A DNA stretch of 64,000 nt. It comes from Spirochaetota bacterium. Lineage in GTDB: Bacteria; Spirochaetota; Spirochaetia; Treponematales; UBA12059. The stretch lies in contig JADFDI010000001.1 in the NCBI GenBank assembly GCA_018262985.1, positions 513,027 to 577,026 of the forward strand, read 5' to 3'. The stretch's first letter is position 1. Each line of letters begins with the position of its first letter. Below are positions 43,916 through 51,204 of this stretch, piece after piece. A program made the translations under genes and the position numbers. The notes under the pieces are model-generated. The model was not told the origin of the DNA, did not search any database, and saw nothing but the letters and a program-made list of their open reading frames with translations.

Positions 43916-45277
43916 CTACAGCCTCCCTTCCGCCGCGAGCGCGTGGGCTTCGAGGCCCTCGAGCCGGGCGAGGGTCGCCGCGTCGCGGGCGAGTCCCGCC
44001 GCCCCGGCGCGATGGTCGAGGCGCAGCCAGGAGCGTTGCCTGAGGAAGTCCGCCACCGAGAGCCCGCCCGAGCGCCGCGCCGCGCCGCCCGTGGGCAGGC
44101 AGTGGTTCGGCCCCGCGCCGTAGTCCGCGAGCGCCTCCGCCGCGAGGCCGCCCTCGAAGACGGCGCCCGCGTGGCGGATCCGCGCGCGGAGCGAGGCGGC
44201 GTCGCGGGCGTGGATGGCCAGGTGCTCCGGGGCGAGGGCGTCGGCGAGGGCGCCGAGCGCGTCGACCGATCCCGGGACGCAGGCGAAGCCGCCTTCGAGG
44301 GCCGCGCGGGCCGCCGTCGCGTCGGCGGTCGCGAGGCGGGCGAGCGCGTCGTCCAGTTCCCGTTCCACCGCCTCCACGAAGCGCTCCGAGGCGCAGGCGA
44401 GCCAGACGCGGGCGTCGCCGTCGTGCTCCGCCTGGGCGGCCAGGTCGAGCGCGACGAGGCGCGGGTCGGCCGCGTCGTCGGCCAGGACGAGGAGCTCGCT
44501 CGGACCCGCGATCGAGTCGATCCGGACCCGCGCGGCGGCGAGGCGTTTGGCCGCCGCCACCCAGCGGTTGCCAGGCCCGGCCACGGCGTCGCGCGGGGCG
44601 AGGCGTCCGCAGCCGAGGGCGAGCGCGGCGATTGCGTGGGCGCCGCCCGCCGCGACCAGGGCGTCCGCGCCCGCGAGCGCGCAGGCCGCCAGGGTGGCCG
44701 GGGCGGGCCGGGGCGAGGCGACCAGCACCTCGCGGACGCCGGCCGCGCGCGCGGGGATGACGGTCATGAGGGCGGTGGAGGGCAGGGGGTGGCGGCCGCC
44801 GGGCACGTAGCAGCCCGCCTTTTCCACCGCGAGCCAGTCCCAGCCGGCCCGGCCGCCGGGCACCGCCACGGAGCCGGGGACGAAGGCGGCGTGCTGGGCG
44901 CGCGCGAAAGCCTCGACGCGGGCGGCCGCGGCCTCGAGGGCCGCGCGGACGGGCGGCGCGAGCGAAGCGAGCGCGCGGGAGAAATCCCCGGGGCCGTAGA
45001 CGACGAGGCCGTCTTCCCCGCGCGGGGCGTCCGGCGCCGCGTCGCCGAAGCGCGCGACCGCGGCCGCGAGCGCGGCGCTGCCCCCCTCCGCGATTTCCCG
45101 GAACGCCGTGGCGGCGAAGGCGTCCGCCTCGGGGTCGCTCCGGCCGCCGTCGGCCGCGGACAGGGCTTCTTCGAGGCCGACGCGGCTGAACCTGAACGGC
45201 GCCGTTCCGGCCGCGGCGGAGGCGGAGCCGTCGCGCCGCGCCCGCTTCGCGCCGCCTAGTGGATTCCCGCCGGACAT
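43916..45277 (-). CDS. hisD: Histidinol dehydrogenase
   Basis: A 453-residue NAD+/Zn enzyme for the last two steps of histidine synthesis. Key motifs: KAGCYVPGGRHPLPSTALMT, VAGPGNRWVAAAKRLAA, DSIAGPSELLVLADD, AQAEHDGDARVWL, APEHLAIHARD and GAGPNHCLPTGGAARRSGGL, holding the zinc and catalytic His residues. It is the last gene of the operon; its ATG lies 22 nt inside the end of the hisA-I-E fusion gene. Confidence 0.97.
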   Translation of the reverse strand: MSGGNPLGGAKRARRDGSASAAAGTAPFRFSRVGLEEALSAADGGRSDPEADAFAATAFREIAEGGSAALAAAVARFGDAAPDAPRGEDGLVVYGPGDFSRALASLAPPVRAALEAAAARVEAFARAQHAAFVPGSVAVPGGRAGWDWLAVEKAGCYVPGGRHPLPSTALMTVIPARAAGVREVLVASPRPAPATLAACALAGADALVAAGGAHAIAALALGCGRLAPRDAVAGPGNRWVAAAKRLAAARVRIDSIAGPSELLVLADDAADPRLVALDLAAQAEHDGDARVWLACASERFVEAVERELDDALARLATADATAARAALEGGFACVPGSVDALGALADALAPEHLAIHARDAASLRARIRHAGAVFEGGLAAEALADYGAGPNHCLPTGGAARRSGGLSVADFLRQRSWLRLDHRAGAAGLARDAATLARLEGLEAHALAAEGRL

Positions 45278-46566
45278 GCCGCCTCCCTTCCCGCCGGGGC
45301 GGGTTTCGCGTCGCCGGGGCGGCGCGTGAGCTTCCGGGCGCGACGGTCGAGGACGCGCTCCACGTCGGAGAGGCGGGCGCCCGCGGCCGCGAGCGCGACC
45401 AGGGCGAAGTAGAAGAGGTCGGCCGCCTCCTCGGCGGCGCGCTCCGCGCCTTCGGCCTCGGCGAGCTCTGCCGCCTCCTCCGCGAGCTTGGCCGCGAGGA
45501 GGCCTTCTTCCTCGAGGAGCCTCCGCGTGTAGGAACCTTCGGGCGCGGCGGCCGTCCTGCCGATGACGGTCCGCTCGAGGAGGGACAGGCCCCCGTCGCC
45601 GCCGAAGCAGCTCCTCGTGCCCAGGTGGCAGAATCCCGTCCCCTCCTGCCGCACCGTGAACGCGAGCGCGTCGCGGTCGCAGTCGGCCTCGACGCGGACG
45701 AGGACCTGCCGGTCGCCGGAGGATTCGCCCTTGCGCCAGAGCCCGCGCCTCCGCGAACGGTAGACCCCCGCGCCCGTCTCGAGGGCCTCGCGGAGGCTCT
45801 CGGCGTCGGACCAGGCGAGGCCGAGGGACAGACCCCGTTCGTCGCGCACCACGGTCGGCCAGAGCCCGTCCGGGCGATCCGAGACGAGGGGGGTGGCGAA
45901 GGCTTCCGCGAGGCCGAGCTTTCCGGTATAGAGGGCCATGCCGACCTGGGCGTCCGCGCCCAGCCGGTCGAGCGCGGCGATCTCGGCGCCCGTCGCGACG
46001 CCGCCCGCGAAGACGAGCCGTCCTTCGAAGCCGGCGTCGCGCGCGGCCGCGACGAGCGTTCCGCAGCGCCCGAGGTCGATGCCGCCCATGCGGCCCTCGC
46101 GCTCGACCATCGTGAGGAGGAAGCCGCCTGAGTACGGCGCGAGGCGGCGGAGCCGTTCCTCGACCGTCTCGCCCGTGCCGCGCGTCCAGCCGGAGTCGAG
46201 CACCTCGCCTTCGCGGGCGTCGAGGGCGACCACGACGCGTTCGCGCGGCAATCGCGCGAGGAAGCCCTCGCCGGCGGCGGTGCCGATGACGACTCGCAGC
46301 GCGCCCGAGTCCAGCAGGGCGACCGCGTCCTCGAGGGAACGGATGCCGCCGCCGACCGCGCAGTCGTGGCGCCTGGCGAGCTCGAGCACGAGGGGGCGGT
46401 TCGAGCCGCGCCCGAGGGCCGCGTCGAGGTCGACGACGGCGAGGGGGCCGACGCGCGAGAAGCGCTCGGCGATTTCGAGCGGGTCGCCGCAGTCGAGCGG
46501 CGCGCCCGCGCCGCCGACCAGCTGGACGGCGCGGCCGCCCATGATGTCGATGGAAGGAATCAGCAT
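45256..46566 (-). CDS. HisA-HisI-HisE fusion: ProFAR isomerase, PR-AMP cyclohydrolase and PR-ATP pyrophosphohydrolase
   Basis: A 436-residue trifunctional protein. HisA barrel, about 1-222: MLIPSIDIMGGRAVQL (catalytic Asp7), VGGGIRSLEDAVALL, VALDAREGEV, FAGGVATGAEI. HisI, about 230-322: GLWRKGESSG, EADCDRDALAF, zinc residues Cys296, Cys313 and Cys320 in CHLGTRSCF. HisE, about 330-412: YTRRLLEEEGLLAAKLAEEA and the metal-binding EEAADLFYFALVAL. HisI-HisE fusions are common; adding HisA at the N-terminus is rare. The frame is open throughout, with no internal stop. ATG 46566 overlaps the hisF end by 7 nt. Confidence 0.93.
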   Translation of the reverse strand: MLIPSIDIMGGRAVQLVGGAGAPLDCGDPLEIAERFSRVGPLAVVDLDAALGRGSNRPLVLELARRHDCAVGGGIRSLEDAVALLDSGALRVVIGTAAGEGFLARLPRERVVVALDAREGEVLDSGWTRGTGETVEERLRRLAPYSGGFLLTMVEREGRMGGIDLGRCGTLVAAARDAGFEGRLVFAGGVATGAEIAALDRLGADAQVGMALYTGKLGLAEAFATPLVSDRPDGLWPTVVRDERGLSLGLAWSDAESLREALETGAGVYRSRRRGLWRKGESSGDRQVLVRVEADCDRDALAFTVRQEGTGFCHLGTRSCFGGDGGLSLLERTVIGRTAAAPEGSYTRRLLEEEGLLAAKLAEEAAELAEAEGAERAAEEAADLFYFALVALAAAGARLSDVERVLDRRARKLTRRPGDAKPAPAGREAACPAGIH

Positions 46567-47447
46567 GGCCTTAGCTCCAGACCGCCCGCCATGAGCGAGC
46601 GTTTGAGGTCGCGGATCGTGAGCCGACCCGCGTGGAAGACGCCGGCCGCGAGCAGGGCCCGGGCCCCGGCGCGCGCGCCCGCGAGGAAGTGCTCCGCGGT
46701 TTCCGCGCCGCCCGAGGCGACGAGCGGCACCGGGAGGATGCGGGCCGCGGCGGCTACGAGCTCGAGCTCGTAGCCCGAGGCCGTGCCGTCGCGGTCGACG
46801 GAGGTGAGGAGGATCTCGCCCGCGCCGAGCGCCGCTCCGGCGAGCGCCCAGGCGAGGGCCGGGACGCCGGTCGCGAGGGTACCCGCGTCGGCGACCGCTT
46901 CCCAGGCGGCGGACGCGCGCAGGGCTTCCGCCGCGGCGGCTCCAGCGGCCAGGCGCTCCAGTGCGCGGCCGGCGATATCGCGCGCGGCTCCGAAGCCGGG
47001 CGAAAGCTTTCCGGGCCGCGCGGCATCGGTTTCGGGGAAGCGCGGGGCGCGGAGGGCGTCGACCGCGAGCACGCAGCACTGGCTGCCGAAGCGCGCGGCG
47101 ATTTCCTGGATCAAGGCCGGGTTCCTCAGCGCGGCCGAGTTGACGGCCACCTTGTCGGCCCCGGCTTCGAGGAGGTGGGCCGCGTCGCCGGCGGAACGCA
47201 GGCCGCCGCCGACGCAGAGCGGGATGCCGACAGCCGCGCGCGTCGCCCGGACCGCGCCCAGCGCCGCCTTCCGGTCCTCGAGCGTCGCGGACACGTCGAG
47301 CAGGACGAGCTCGTCGGCGCCTGCTTCCTCGTAGCGCGCGGCGAGCGCGGCGGGGTCGCCCGAGTCGGCGAGATCGCGGAAGCGGACGCCCTTCACGACG
47401 CGGCCCGCCTTGACGTCGAGGCAGGGGATGATCCGTAGGGCGCTCAT
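46560..47447 (-). CDS. hisF: Imidazole glycerol phosphate synthase cyclase subunit HisF
   Basis: A 295-residue beta/alpha barrel that with HisH makes imidazole-glycerol phosphate and AICAR. Catalytic Asp11 (IIPCLDVKAGRVVKG) and Asp130 (CCVLAVDA) are present, with VGGGLRS, DKVAVNS and SVDRDGTASGYELEL. It is about 40 residues longer than usual: between Asp130 and GAGEILLTSVDRDG lies an Ala-rich insertion (about 134-196). Start ATGA overlaps the hisH stop. Confidence 0.95.
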   Translation of the reverse strand: MSALRIIPCLDVKAGRVVKGVRFRDLADSGDPAALAARYEEAGADELVLLDVSATLEDRKAALGAVRATRAAVGIPLCVGGGLRSAGDAAHLLEAGADKVAVNSAALRNPALIQEIAARFGSQCCVLAVDALRAPRFPETDAARPGKLSPGFGAARDIAGRALERLAAGAAAAEALRASAAWEAVADAGTLATGVPALAWALAGAALGAGEILLTSVDRDGTASGYELELVAAAARILPVPLVASGGAETAEHFLAGARAGARALLAAGVFHAGRLTIRDLKRSLMAGGLELRPC

Positions 47448-48169
47448 CGCGCGCCTCCGGCCGCGGCCGTAGGCCACCGCCCTTCGAGCTCTGTCCCCCG
47501 CGCGGTCGCCACGGCCGCGTCGGCGCGCTCGAGCCAACGCCGGAGCAGGGCCGCGCCCCAGGCGCCCGACAGCTCGGGGTGGAACTGGCAGGCGAGCGAG
47601 GGGCCGCGCTCGAGGGTCGCGACGAAGGCGCCGCCGTACTCCGCGGAGGCGGGGCGCCAGCCGGCGGCGCGCGCGAGGGCGGCTTCCCCCGAACCGAGCC
47701 GGTACGAGTTCGCGAAGCAGGCCCAGCCCTCCTCCACGAGCCCCACCCCGCTCCCGGCATCCGGGACCACGCGGTTCCAGCCGAGCTGGGGAATCGGCAC
47801 CCCCGCGCCGAAGCGGCGCGCGACGCCCGGCACGAGGCCGAGGCCCGGGACGCCCGGCGCTTCCTCGCTTCCTTCGAGGAGGAGCTGGAAGCCCAGGCAG
47901 ATGGCCAGGGTCGGGCGGCCGGCTTCCACCCGTTCCCGCACGGCGAGATCCAGTTCCGAGGCCCTGAGCGCATCCATGGCGGGACCGAAGGCGCCGACGC
48001 CGGGCAGCACCGCGAGCGGGGCGCGCGCGAAGGCCACCGGGTCGGACGCGGGCGCCGTGACGCGACCGAGCCGGGCGAAGGCGGCGCGGACGCTGGCCAG
48101 GTTGGCCACCCCGGTGCGCGCCACGGCGATCGGGGCGGAACCCCGAGGGATGGATTTGTCGTTCTTCAC
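47444..48169 (-). CDS. hisH: Imidazole glycerol phosphate synthase glutaminase subunit HisH
   Basis: A 241-residue class I glutamine amidotransferase that feeds ammonia to HisF. It shows VLPGVGAFGPAMDALR, the nucleophile loop LAICLGFQLLLEGS, PQLGWNRV and the catalytic CQFHPELSG. The start is GTG 48169, sharing GTGA with the hisB stop. The N-terminal strand reads ARTGVANLASV rather than the usual YGxGNLxSV, a small deviation. Confidence 0.94.
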   Translation of the reverse strand: MKNDKSIPRGSAPIAVARTGVANLASVRAAFARLGRVTAPASDPVAFARAPLAVLPGVGAFGPAMDALRASELDLAVRERVEAGRPTLAICLGFQLLLEGSEEAPGVPGLGLVPGVARRFGAGVPIPQLGWNRVVPDAGSGVGLVEEGWACFANSYRLGSGEAALARAAGWRPASAEYGGAFVATLERGPSLACQFHPELSGAWGAALLRRWLERADAAVATARGTELEGRWPTAAAGGAR

Positions 48170-48807
48170 GCGAGCGTTCCTTTCAGGCTGGGGACGCGCG
48201 CCGCGCCTTCCGCGGCGCCGTCCATGGAGTCGAAGGCGACCGCCTCGCGCAGGGCGAGGGCGAGCGCCTTGAAGGCCGCCTCGGCCTTGTGGTGGTCGTT
48301 GCCGCCGCGGAGCACGTCGAGGTGGACGGCCGCGCGCGCGGCGCTCGCGAAGCTCCGGACGACGTGCGAGACGTTCTCGGCGGCCAGGGCGCCCAAGGCC
48401 GGGCGGACGAGGGCGAGCGAAACCTCGCACCAGGGCCGCCCTCCGAGGTCGACCGCCGCGCGCGCGAGCGCGTCGTCGAGGCAGGCGTGGGCCGACCCGA
48501 AGCGGCGGATGCCCGCCCGGTCGCCGAGGGCGCGGTCGAGCAGGGTCCCGAGGACGAGGGCGGAGTCCTCCGCCGTATGGTGCTCGTCGACGTGGAGGTC
48601 GCCGTCCGCGCGGAGCTCGAGGGTCCAGCGCGCGTGGAAGGCCAGGGTGGAAAGGAGGTGGTCGAGGAAGCCGACGCCGGTACTCACGTTCACTGCTCCG
48701 GGCTCGAGGGCGAGCGAGGCGACGACGCGCGTCTCGCTCGTGACCCGCTCGAGCGCGGCGAAGCGCGCCGCGGCTCTGGGCGTCGCCGTTGCTTCGGCAG
48801 GGCTCAC
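48166..48807 (-). CDS. hisB: Imidazoleglycerol-phosphate dehydratase
   Basis: A 213-residue Mn-dependent dehydratase (stand-alone HisB, no phosphatase domain). Metal motifs: GVGFLDHLLSTLAFHA, HVDEHHTAED and GGNDHHKAEAAFKALALA. It starts with GTG 48807, overlapping the hisC stop (GTGA). A separate histidinol phosphatase gene is not present in this operon. Confidence 0.95.
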   Translation of the reverse strand: MSPAEATATPRAAARFAALERVTSETRVVASLALEPGAVNVSTGVGFLDHLLSTLAFHARWTLELRADGDLHVDEHHTAEDSALVLGTLLDRALGDRAGIRRFGSAHACLDDALARAAVDLGGRPWCEVSLALVRPALGALAAENVSHVVRSFASAARAAVHLDVLRGGNDHHKAEAAFKALALALREAVAFDSMDGAAEGAARVPSLKGTLA

Positions 48808-49955
48808 GCGAAGCCTCCCGCCGCGGCGATGGCGGCCTCGAGCCGTGCGAGCGAGGCGGCGTCCGGCGGGCAGCCGACGCGCGCCGCGTCCGCGAGCTCG
48901 CTTCCCGCGGGCCAGGTCCGGACGGCGATGCCGCGGCCGGCGAGCGCGGACGCGAAGCCGCGCGCGTCGCGGAACCGCGCGAACACGAAATTCGCCTCCG
49001 AGGGACGGACCTTCGCGCCGGCCGCCGCGAGCGATGAGAGGATCCGTCCCCGAGCCTCCCGGGCGAAGGCGACCGAGCGGGCGAGCGCGGCCTCGTTCCC
49101 CAGGGCCTCGAGCGCGATGGCCGCCGCGAGGCCGCCGACGGGGTAGGGCAAGCCCGCCGCGCGGAGCGCCCCGATCGTGGACGGCGCCGCGAGCGCGTAG
49201 CCGACGCGGAGCCCCGCGAGGCCGTAGGCCTTCGAGAAGGTGCCGAGCGCCACCACGTCATCGCGGCCGGAGCGGATCAGGCGGGCCGCGGCGGCCCTGA
49301 TGTCGAAGCGCGCGAACTCCGCGTAGGCGCCGTCCGCCACGAGCAGGCGGCCCCGGCAGAGCGCCGCGAGCGCGTCGAAAGCTTCTTCCGTGACGGCCGC
49401 TCCCGTCGGGTTGGCGGGGCTCGCGACGCAGAGGGCGCCGATGCCGGGTTCGTCGCGGAGGGCCTCGGCCACCGCCTCGAGCGGAAAGTCCGTCCCTTCG
49501 GGCCAAGGGACGGAGCTCGCTTCCGCGCCCGCGAGCTTCGCGTGGACGCGGAACATGGCGAAGCCCGGCTCGAGGACGAGCGCCTTCGAGCCCGGCCGCG
49601 CGAAGGCGCGGAGCGCGCGTGAAAGCGCGTCGTCGGAGCCGCAGCACGCCAGGCTGGATCCCGGAGCGAGGCCGAAGCGCCGGGCGAGCGCGCCTTCGAG
49701 CACCCGCGCGTCGGGGTAGCGGCGGGCGAGCTCCAGGACCGCTTCCGTCCAGGCTCCTTCCGCCCGCGCGCCCTCGCCCGCGAGGCCGTCGAGCAGGGAA
49801 GCGAGCGCCTCCGACGGCGAGCCTTCGTTCGCGTCGAGCGCCAGGTCGACGCCGGCCGCGCGGAGGGGCGGCTCGTAAGGTTCGGGGAGGTCCGCGCGCG
49901 GGGCGAAGGCGGCGCCGGCGGCGGGCGCGCGGGCGCCGCTCACGGCACGATCCAT
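48804..49955 (-). CDS. hisC: Histidinol-phosphate aminotransferase
   Basis: A 383-residue PLP aminotransferase. It has LALDANEGSPSEAL, CCGSDDALSRALRAF, VASPANPTGAAVTEEAF, the PLP-lysine motif LGTFSKAYGLAGLRVGYAL and a C-terminal Arg region. The N-terminal 25 residues are Ala-rich. ATG 49955 overlaps the end of hisG by 16 nt; a longer open frame exists upstream but would lie deep inside hisG. Confidence 0.94.
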   Translation of the reverse strand: MDRAVSGARAPAAGAAFAPRADLPEPYEPPLRAAGVDLALDANEGSPSEALASLLDGLAGEGARAEGAWTEAVLELARRYPDARVLEGALARRFGLAPGSSLACCGSDDALSRALRAFARPGSKALVLEPGFAMFRVHAKLAGAEASSVPWPEGTDFPLEAVAEALRDEPGIGALCVASPANPTGAAVTEEAFDALAALCRGRLLVADGAYAEFARFDIRAAAARLIRSGRDDVVALGTFSKAYGLAGLRVGYALAAPSTIGALRAAGLPYPVGGLAAAIALEALGNEAALARSVAFAREARGRILSSLAAAGAKVRPSEANFVFARFRDARGFASALAGRGIAVRTWPAGSELADAARVGCPPDAASLARLEAAIAAAGGFA

Positions 49956-50809
49956 GACGGTTCGGTGACGACGATGTCCGTGCCGCCGCGCGCGCGGATT
50001 TCCTGGATCAGGGTCGGCAGGGCCTCGCGCGGCGCGGCCACCTTGACCGCCCAGCCCCCGCCGCCGCGCAGCGCCGACACGGTGGGCTCGCGCATGCACG
50101 GCAGCGCCGCCACCACGGCGTCGAGCGCGTCGGAGCCCACGTTGACCTCGAGCATCACGCGGCTTCGCGCCGCCAGCACGGAGCGGCAGAGCAGCGCCAC
50201 CCGCTCGACGCCGCGCGCCTTCTCCGGATCGGCCATGGCCTCGCGGCTCGCGTAGAGCCGCGTCGTGCTCCGCATGAGCTCGTCGACCACCGCGAGCCGG
50301 TTGGCGCGGAGCGTGGAGCCGGTCGCCACGTTGTCGATGATGAGGTCCGCGTCCTCGGGCGGGAAGGCCTCGGTCGCCCCGTAGGAGCGCACGAACACTG
50401 CCTCGAGGCCGCGCTTGGCGATCCAGGCGCGGGCTATCGCCTCGTACTCGCTCGCGACGACGAGGGTCTTGCGCGGCAGCTCGCCCGAGGGCCCGAGCGA
50501 GGCCGCCGGGGCCGCGGCCGCCAGGGTGACCGGGTCGAAGCCCGTGTCGAGCACCTCCACGAGGTCGGCACCGAGCTCGCGGACCCAGTCGGCGCCCGCA
50601 AAGCCGAGGTCGCGCGTGCCCGTCGCGAGCATCTCGACGATGTTCTGGCTCTTGAGCAGCTTCGCGTCGAAGCCGCCCCCGGCCACCGTCGGCCGGTAGT
50701 CCCGTTCGCCTAGCCTGACCGCGAGGCCCGCCTCCTGAAGCAGCGCGAGCACCGCCTCCTGCATCCTGCCTTTCGGCAGGCCGATGCGGAGCTTCGTTCC
50801 CGTTTCCAT
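49940..50809 (-). CDS. hisG: ATP phosphoribosyltransferase, long form
   Basis: The committed step of histidine synthesis. The 289-residue length and the C-terminal ACT-like regulatory region (about 215-289, MLEVNVGSDALDAVVAALPC) identify the long, HisZ-independent form, likely feedback-inhibited by histidine. Catalytic-domain motifs: LRIGLPKGRMQEAVLALLQE, GFAGADWVRELG, ADLIIDNVATGSTLRANRL. GGGGAG lies 5 nt before ATG 50809. It is the first gene of the operon, downstream of the his leader. Confidence 0.96.
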   Translation of the reverse strand: METGTKLRIGLPKGRMQEAVLALLQEAGLAVRLGERDYRPTVAGGGFDAKLLKSQNIVEMLATGTRDLGFAGADWVRELGADLVEVLDTGFDPVTLAAAAPAASLGPSGELPRKTLVVASEYEAIARAWIAKRGLEAVFVRSYGATEAFPPEDADLIIDNVATGSTLRANRLAVVDELMRSTTRLYASREAMADPEKARGVERVALLCRSVLAARSRVMLEVNVGSDALDAVVAALPCMREPTVSALRGGGGWAVKVAAPREALPTLIQEIRARGGTDIVVTEPSWIVP

Positions 50810-50860
50810 CCGTCTCCCCTTTTTTCAGGCGCCGGAAGCCCGGTCCGAGGGACGGAACCG

Positions 50861-50898
50861 AAAAAACGGCGCAGGCCTCGTACGAAGCCGGCGCCGTT
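50861..50898 (-). terminator. his leader terminator T2 (proximal to hisG)
   Basis: On the minus strand AACGGCGC...GCGCCGTT with an inner GGC/GCC stem-loop, followed by TTTTTT (50866-50861). It ends about 50 nt before the hisG start and can block operon transcription. Confidence 0.75.
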
Positions 50899-50912
50899 TC
50901 GATAAGGAAACG

Positions 50913-50936
50913 AAAACGCCGGCCTTCCGGCCGGCG
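50913..50936 (-). terminator. his leader terminator T1
   Basis: On the minus strand CGCCGGCC-GGAA-GGCCGGCG (50936-50917) followed by TTTTCGTTT. It begins 22 nt after the leader-peptide stop codon, the normal position for an attenuator terminator. Confidence 0.75.
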
Positions 50937-50958
50937 CTCTGGTCTGAGTCGCGTCCCG

Positions 50959-51054
50959 CTAGTCCCGGAACGCGCCGACCCGCATCGCGGCCGCGCTGTG
51001 GTGGCCGTGATGATGGAGGAGGGCTGCGCCGAGGGCGAAACGTCGTTCGTTCAC
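50959..51054 (-). CDS. hisL: his operon leader peptide
   Basis: A 31-codon reading frame, GTG 51054 to TAG 50959, reading (with GTG as Met) MNERRFALGAALLHHHGHHS then AAAMRVGAFRD. Residues 14-19 are H-H-H-G-H-H. A His-rich peptide just ahead of two terminators and the complete his operon is the hallmark of ribosome-mediated attenuation: low His-tRNA stalls the ribosome at the His codons and favours an antiterminator. The alternative pairing was not computed. A promoter ends 10 nt upstream of the GTG. Confidence 0.85.
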   Translation of the reverse strand: MNERRFALGAALLHHHGHHSAAAMRVGAFRD

Positions 51055-51064
51055 GATGCTCGGG

Positions 51065-51094
51065 ATAGAAACACGGCTCCGTCGCCCGTGTCAA
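51065..51094 (-). promoter_or_regulatory. his operon promoter
   Basis: A consensus TTGACA (51094-51089), an 18-nt spacer and TTCTAT (51070-51065) on the minus strand, 10 nt upstream of the leader-peptide GTG. The leader mRNA would start only about 4 nt before the peptide. Confidence 0.7.
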
Positions 51095-51109
51095 GCGTTT
51101 TTCGCAGCG

Positions 51110-51204
51110 CCCGGAAGCTTCGTGACACCGGGGCCCGGCTCGCCGCCCGGAAGCTTCGTGACACCGGAGGCCGATTTCTCCGCCCGGAAGCTTCATGACC
51201 CAGG
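51110..51204. repeat. Three tandem copies of a 22-bp repeat upstream of the his promoter
   Basis: CCCGGAAGCTTCGTGACACCGG occurs exactly at 51110-51131 and 51146-51167, with a third, 3-mismatch copy at 51183-51204. The period is 36-37 bp. The cluster fills the space between the his promoter and the PHP gene promoter and may be an operator or a spreading repeat. Confidence 0.65.

Follow-up and report, generated by a model that had tools for sequence, protein, structure and literature searches.

A predicted leaderless, sometimes double-terminator form of classical his attenuation ahead of hisG in Spirochaetota and one wider HisG clade

Can a translating ribosome decide whether the his operon of a spirochaete is transcribed, as in enteric bacteria? 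The question is raised by a locus in a 64,000-nucleotide stretch of a Spirochaetota genome (hereafter the window), in which a promoter with a TTGACA −35 box is followed on the minus strand by a 31-codon frame encoding HHHGHH, two U-tailed hairpins, hisG and a complete his operon (Table 1). The original prediction had proposed a classical his attenuator from these parts, and the frame, both hairpins, hisG and the complete operon were each re-found on the minus strand at base level, as were, exactly, the five His codons in six positions. On sequence and comparative grounds we consider it highly likely that this leader controls transcription of the his operon by ribosome-mediated attenuation. Our best reading is that it represents a leaderless, sometimes double-terminator form of classical his attenuation, common to one HisG clade across six phyla; we found no description of it for Spirochaetota in the open-licence literature. 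The operon also contains a hisA-hisIE fusion, a single frame (45,256–46,566, minus strand) with His_biosynth, PRA-CH and PRA-PH domains.

Table 1. Features of the his leader and operon, in window coordinates
Feature	Positions	Strand	Description	Basis or remark
Promoter	51065..51094	minus	−35 TTGACA 51094-51089, 18-nt spacer, −10 TTCTAT 51070-51065	predicted RNA start about 51058
Leader peptide ORF	50959..51054	minus	GTG start at 51054, 31 codons MNERRFALGAALLHHHGHHSAAAMRVGAFRD, TAG 50961-50959	kept in relatives
Regulatory codons	50998..51015	minus	CAT CAT CAC GGC CAC CAC (HHHGHH)	sequence
Strand 1	51003..51012	minus	CAUCACGGCC; predicted partner strand 2 (anti-antiterminator 1:2)	fold and swap test
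Strand 2	50983..50996	minus	GCGCGGCCGCGAUG; predicted partner strand 1 or T1 5' arm (antiterminator 2:3)	nascent-RNA folds with stalled ribosome and swap test
Further complement beside strand 2	50980-50972	minus	GGUCGGCGC	
Stop-codon hairpin	50950..50974	minus	enclosed by 2:3	post-stop hairpin in most relatives inspected
Terminator T1	50905..50938	minus	hairpin 50938-50917; strand 3 is the 5' arm and GGAA loop, strand 4 the 3' arm; U-rich tail UUUUCGUUUCCU	
Terminator T2	50861..50898	minus	hairpin 50898-50865; strands 5 and 6; six-U tail	possible 4:5 pairing, including the U tail behind strand 4
hisG	49940..50809	minus	long form with HisG_C domain; ATG at 50809	TIGR00070, TIGR03455, PF01634, PF08029
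Rest of his operon	43916..49955	minus	hisC, hisB, hisH, hisF, hisA-hisIE fusion, hisD	overlapping

Among the open reading frames of up to 45 codons in the window, the leader was the sole case with five His in six codons, and no such frame occurred in 40 Markov-random windows. That a chance ORF merely precedes ordinary intergenic terminators draws some credit from the ease with which stable hairpins arise at high GC, but the random windows, together with the presence of the leader in all 38 hisG loci read from the window's family and its sister family, make such a coincidence extremely improbable. The Rfam His_leader model (RF00514) had no match in the window at its gathering score, nor at E values up to 10 in positions 50,700–51,150, and a T-box covariance model matched neither the window nor any of 20 relatives that lack the leader.

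In the enteric his leader, helices A:B, C:D and E:F form in alternation with B:C and D:E, and the leader peptide has a Shine-Dalgarno-led start. Strands 1 to 6 of the spirochaete leader match this A–F logic, and the attenuators of Escherichia coli and Salmonella (RF00514) likewise combine a short leader peptide containing a run of His codons with mutually exclusive helices and a terminator before hisG. The spirochaete leader differs from them in its near-leaderless start, in a C:D-like hairpin that is itself U-tailed, in its phylum and in the lack of an Rfam match.

The mechanism that we propose is as follows. RNA polymerase would begin a few bases ahead of the leader GTG, and ribosome loading at the 5' end would need no Shine-Dalgarno site. 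When His-tRNA is charged, the ribosome would reach the stop codon and cover strand 2, allowing T1 (3:4) and T2 (5:6) to form and transcription to end ahead of hisG. When charged His-tRNA is scarce, the ribosome would stall on the His codons and cover strand 1, strand 2 would pair with strand 3 before strand 4 is synthesized and T1 would fail; strand 4, left free, could then pair with strand 5, so that T2 would fail too. The operon would very probably be switched on only under histidine shortage, through the stalled ribosome.

The start of this pathway depends on the promoter. The original prediction had called it a consensus promoter, and this held for the TTGACA −35 box and for the conserved distance from TTGAC to the start codon but not for the −10 box, which agrees with TATAAT at only 3 of 6 positions; because of this weak box, a strict promoter scan misses the promoter. 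Across the leader loci, TTGAC lies 35–41 nt ahead of the leader start in 63 of 72, a count partly favoured by the choice among alternative start codons. Restricting the count to the 32 loci that offer a single possible start codon removes this bias: 31 of them carry TTGAC 34–41 nt ahead of it, whereas the background sequence further upstream predicts 0.5%. Given ordinary promoter geometry, transcription would then begin 0–5 nt from the start codon. For the window, whose −10-like box ends 10 nt ahead of the GTG, the predicted 5' UTR is about 4 nt, the distance originally proposed, and there is no room for a Shine-Dalgarno site. The promoter spacing strongly indicates that the leader peptide begins at a leaderless or near-leaderless 5' end in most loci, the exact end being predicted from the promoter.

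Leader peptides likewise start at or near the RNA 5' end in the attenuators of S. meliloti trpL (PMC7298713) and C. glutamicum ilvBNC (PMC11857589) and in the leaderless poly-Cys leaders of mycobacteria (Canestrari 2020, as cited in PMC13236596), all of which concern other amino acids and other phyla; the mycobacterial Cys leaders revealed no obvious conserved terminator (PMC1262725).

Just upstream of the his promoter, the minus strand also carries three direct repeats of TCAYGAAGCTTCCGGGCG (51,108–51,125, 51,144–51,161 and 51,181–51,198). The genome contains 33 copies with at most one mismatch, compared with none of the reversed pattern; they are mostly intergenic, form arrays with periods of about 18, 21, 35 or 48 bp, show no consistent orientation to genes and occur in each of the three genomes from this genus.

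Attenuation requires that the segment following the His codons choose between partners. A subgroup alignment revealed a common plan: the His codons and the GGC behind them form strand 1, a complement of it located directly after them is strand 2, and a hairpin at or past the stop codon precedes T1. Strand 2 has two possible partners, strand 1 and a stretch made up of the T1 loop and the 3' half of the T1 5' arm. The sequences of the second pairing vary among loci: UCGCGGUCG with CGACCGCGA in L007–L009, GGAGCCG with CGGCUCC in several loci of the sister family (f4) and ACUCGGGCCG with CGGCCCGAGU in L014. In 45 loci picked to cover genera, cognate 2:3 duplexes outperformed swapped ones by 3.0 kcal/mol (z −7.5, 0 of 5,000 swaps), where swaps preserve composition and not full relatedness, and the genera have common ancestry. 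Swapping the T1 loop alone, whose bases are unpaired in the terminator and have no role there, cost 1.4 kcal/mol in the same loci (z −5.2, 0 of 5,000). Within the window's family (f1) and f4 alone, the swap tests gave z −5.5 and −4.8 (the −5.5 being that of antiterminator 2:3 in f1 and f4 together); f5 loci alone gave no significant result, and the other phyla alone reached significance for 2:3 only. The 1:2 pairing yielded z −2.5.

For the window by itself the 2:3 pairing is modestly above chance: in this GC-rich RNA it was equalled by 98 of 2,000 shuffles and 46 of 2,000 synonymous recodings, and 14 foreign T1 arms among the 45 loci outdo its own arm in pairing with its strand 2. The alternative pairing between the post-His segment and a T1 arm on which the original prediction depended thus exists and is cognate-specific across the 45 loci, while modest in the window alone. 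The predicted antiterminator starts after the regulatory codons and would exclude the terminator.

We also modelled nascent folds by cutting the RNA ahead of strand 4 and masking up to 11 nt past the stalled His codon; the absence of strand 3 pairing with a ribosome at the stop codon is built into this mask. Strand 3 paired with the ORF segment in most loci, over 6–9 bases in the two loci of the window's genus, and the best nascent fold of the window placed the 2:3 helix around the post-stop hairpin. The 2:3 helix also forms in the naked RNA of many loci. Folding energies are unreliable for GC-rich RNA, but at equilibrium T1 and T2 are favoured over 2:3 and 4:5 in the window by 10–23 kcal/mol, which means that the switch, like that of other attenuators, must work kinetically. 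When the full leader was folded at equilibrium, both terminators formed whatever the ribosome position, so this calculation is uninformative on a kinetic switch.

A U-tailed hairpin like T1 was found, by sequence, in 66 of the 70 leader loci modelled. T2 accompanies it in 19 of the 66, including both hisG-bearing genomes of the window's genus. A terminator scan of the window reported T1 and not T2; the T2 stem contains a single internal C-U mismatch here, and in the sister genome it pairs throughout. The upstream gene, encoding a PHP-domain protein, lies on the opposite strand and diverges from his, and T1 and T2 can for this reason act on the his leader transcript only. The hairpins could instead be mere mRNA structure ahead of hisG under translational or Rho-dependent control, for hisG has its own Shine-Dalgarno-like AGGGGAG (50,820–50,814) near the structured leader; with both hairpins U-tailed, 50–130 nt ahead of hisG, and the antiterminator complementarity aimed at T1, we regard such control as very unlikely.

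How T2 is controlled is a separate matter. In the window, the T1 3' arm and U tail (GGCCGGCG...CGUUUC) can pair with the T2 5' arm (GAAACGGCGCCGGCU) at −24.5 kcal/mol, and in 12 loci matched arms paired better than swapped ones (z −3.1, 11 of 5,000). Pairing of 2:3 and 4:5 would disarm T1 and T2 together. A simpler three-strand attenuator (1:2, 2:3 and 3:4), with T1 alone deciding and T2 a back-up terminator without its own antiterminator, is a possibility that we rate somewhat below even: T1 alone suffices in the 47 of 66 loci from which T2 is missing, and the GCCGGC arms are palindromic, so that 4:5 complementarity comes partly free. Yet 4:5 pairing is better for cognate than for swapped arms and reaches into the T1 U tail, and an unrelieved T2 would block readthrough once T1 is disarmed. 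A search of the open-licence literature for tandem terminators together with attenuation and a leader peptide returned no match.

To determine how far the leader extends, we searched for HisG in 119 relatives and in public genomes and read the DNA upstream. A His-rich short frame precedes hisG at 14 of 14 loci in f1, at all 24 examined in f4, at 10 of 23 in f5 and at 2 of 9 in f3, a tally that omits one weak, chance-like frame (L077). As a negative control for the leader finder, 40 hisG upstream regions sampled elsewhere in the phylum, outside the order, yielded 2 leaders, both from one family. The hisG upstream regions of L080–L093, L098, L101 and L103–L105 (f3 and f5) lack a His leader and contain no Rfam element, T-boxes included.

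Every close relative retains the His run along with its frame and the hairpin; the His-rich leaders foreseen ahead of hisG are thus present at every same-family locus, and the run and frame are not lost while hairpins stay. Together with the pairing tests, these comparisons support the proposal that classical his attenuation logic works here, with T2 as a part in only 19 of the 66 loci. HHHGHH is kept at the protein level across genera, which would also be expected if the His-rich peptide were itself active, as a metal- or histidine-binding product or a nascent-chain arrest peptide, with RNA pairing secondary; leader peptides can work in trans, as does peTrpL of S. meliloti (PMC7298713). Between distant genera, however, conservation of the peptide is limited to the His run, whereas the encoding RNA keeps its pairing; the AVAMIV stretch that one genus conserves at the C terminus is accounted for by strands 1:2 and 2:3. 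We therefore consider an active peptide highly improbable and retain the attenuator.

The leader also precedes hisG in metagenome-assembled genomes assigned in their records to Phycisphaerales, Pirellulaceae, Thermoanaerobaculales, Gemmatimonadota, Bacteroidota and Polyangia. In a HisG tree, the rows from other phyla and the window's lineage group in a single clade (51 rows, starred support) whose members nearly all have the leader; because the tree is midpoint rooted, transfer and inheritance are not separable in it. The fullest reading, to which we give about even credence, is a leaderless his attenuator belonging to one HisG clade and carried along with it, whether inherited or transferred, through Spirochaetota, Planctomycetota, Gemmatimonadota, Acidobacteriota, Bacteroidota and Myxococcota, which in some spirochaete lineages would be a domino of two serial terminators disarmed together.

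Within the window's own genome, a pattern search for further leaderless His leaders returned the his leader and one other match, which is the level of the reversed-pattern control and so gives no evidence of a wider regulon. A search for trp and ilv attenuators for comparison turned up no chorismate-binding (trpE) hit in this genome and, for IlvB, just a distant paralogue; despite the complete his operon, this points to a probable auxotroph for several amino acids.

Outside the enteric bacteria, leader peptides of bacilli hisZ/hisS* were reported in 2010 as the first beyond Proteobacteria and Actinobacteria, to which leader-peptide systems had been thought confined (PMC2965389). A 2013 survey found the Rfam amino-acid attenuators, including the His leader, essentially in gamma-Proteobacteria (PMC3766115), and his attenuators were described in several Firmicutes groups in 2022 (PMC9413887). 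The Firmicutes leaders likewise place His codons, a terminator and an antiterminator ahead of his genes outside Proteobacteria, a likeness of architecture in a different lineage. For transcription attenuation with a leader peptide in spirochaetes, we found nothing in the open-licence literature beyond a general survey of non-coding RNA.

The distribution drawn in 2010 and 2013 would need revision if a his attenuator is indeed conserved within one HisG clade that spans six other phyla. Its start without a Shine-Dalgarno site makes it testable whether leaderless initiation loads a ribosome early enough to set the switch, and the double terminator would be a natural case of two terminators under one stalled ribosome.
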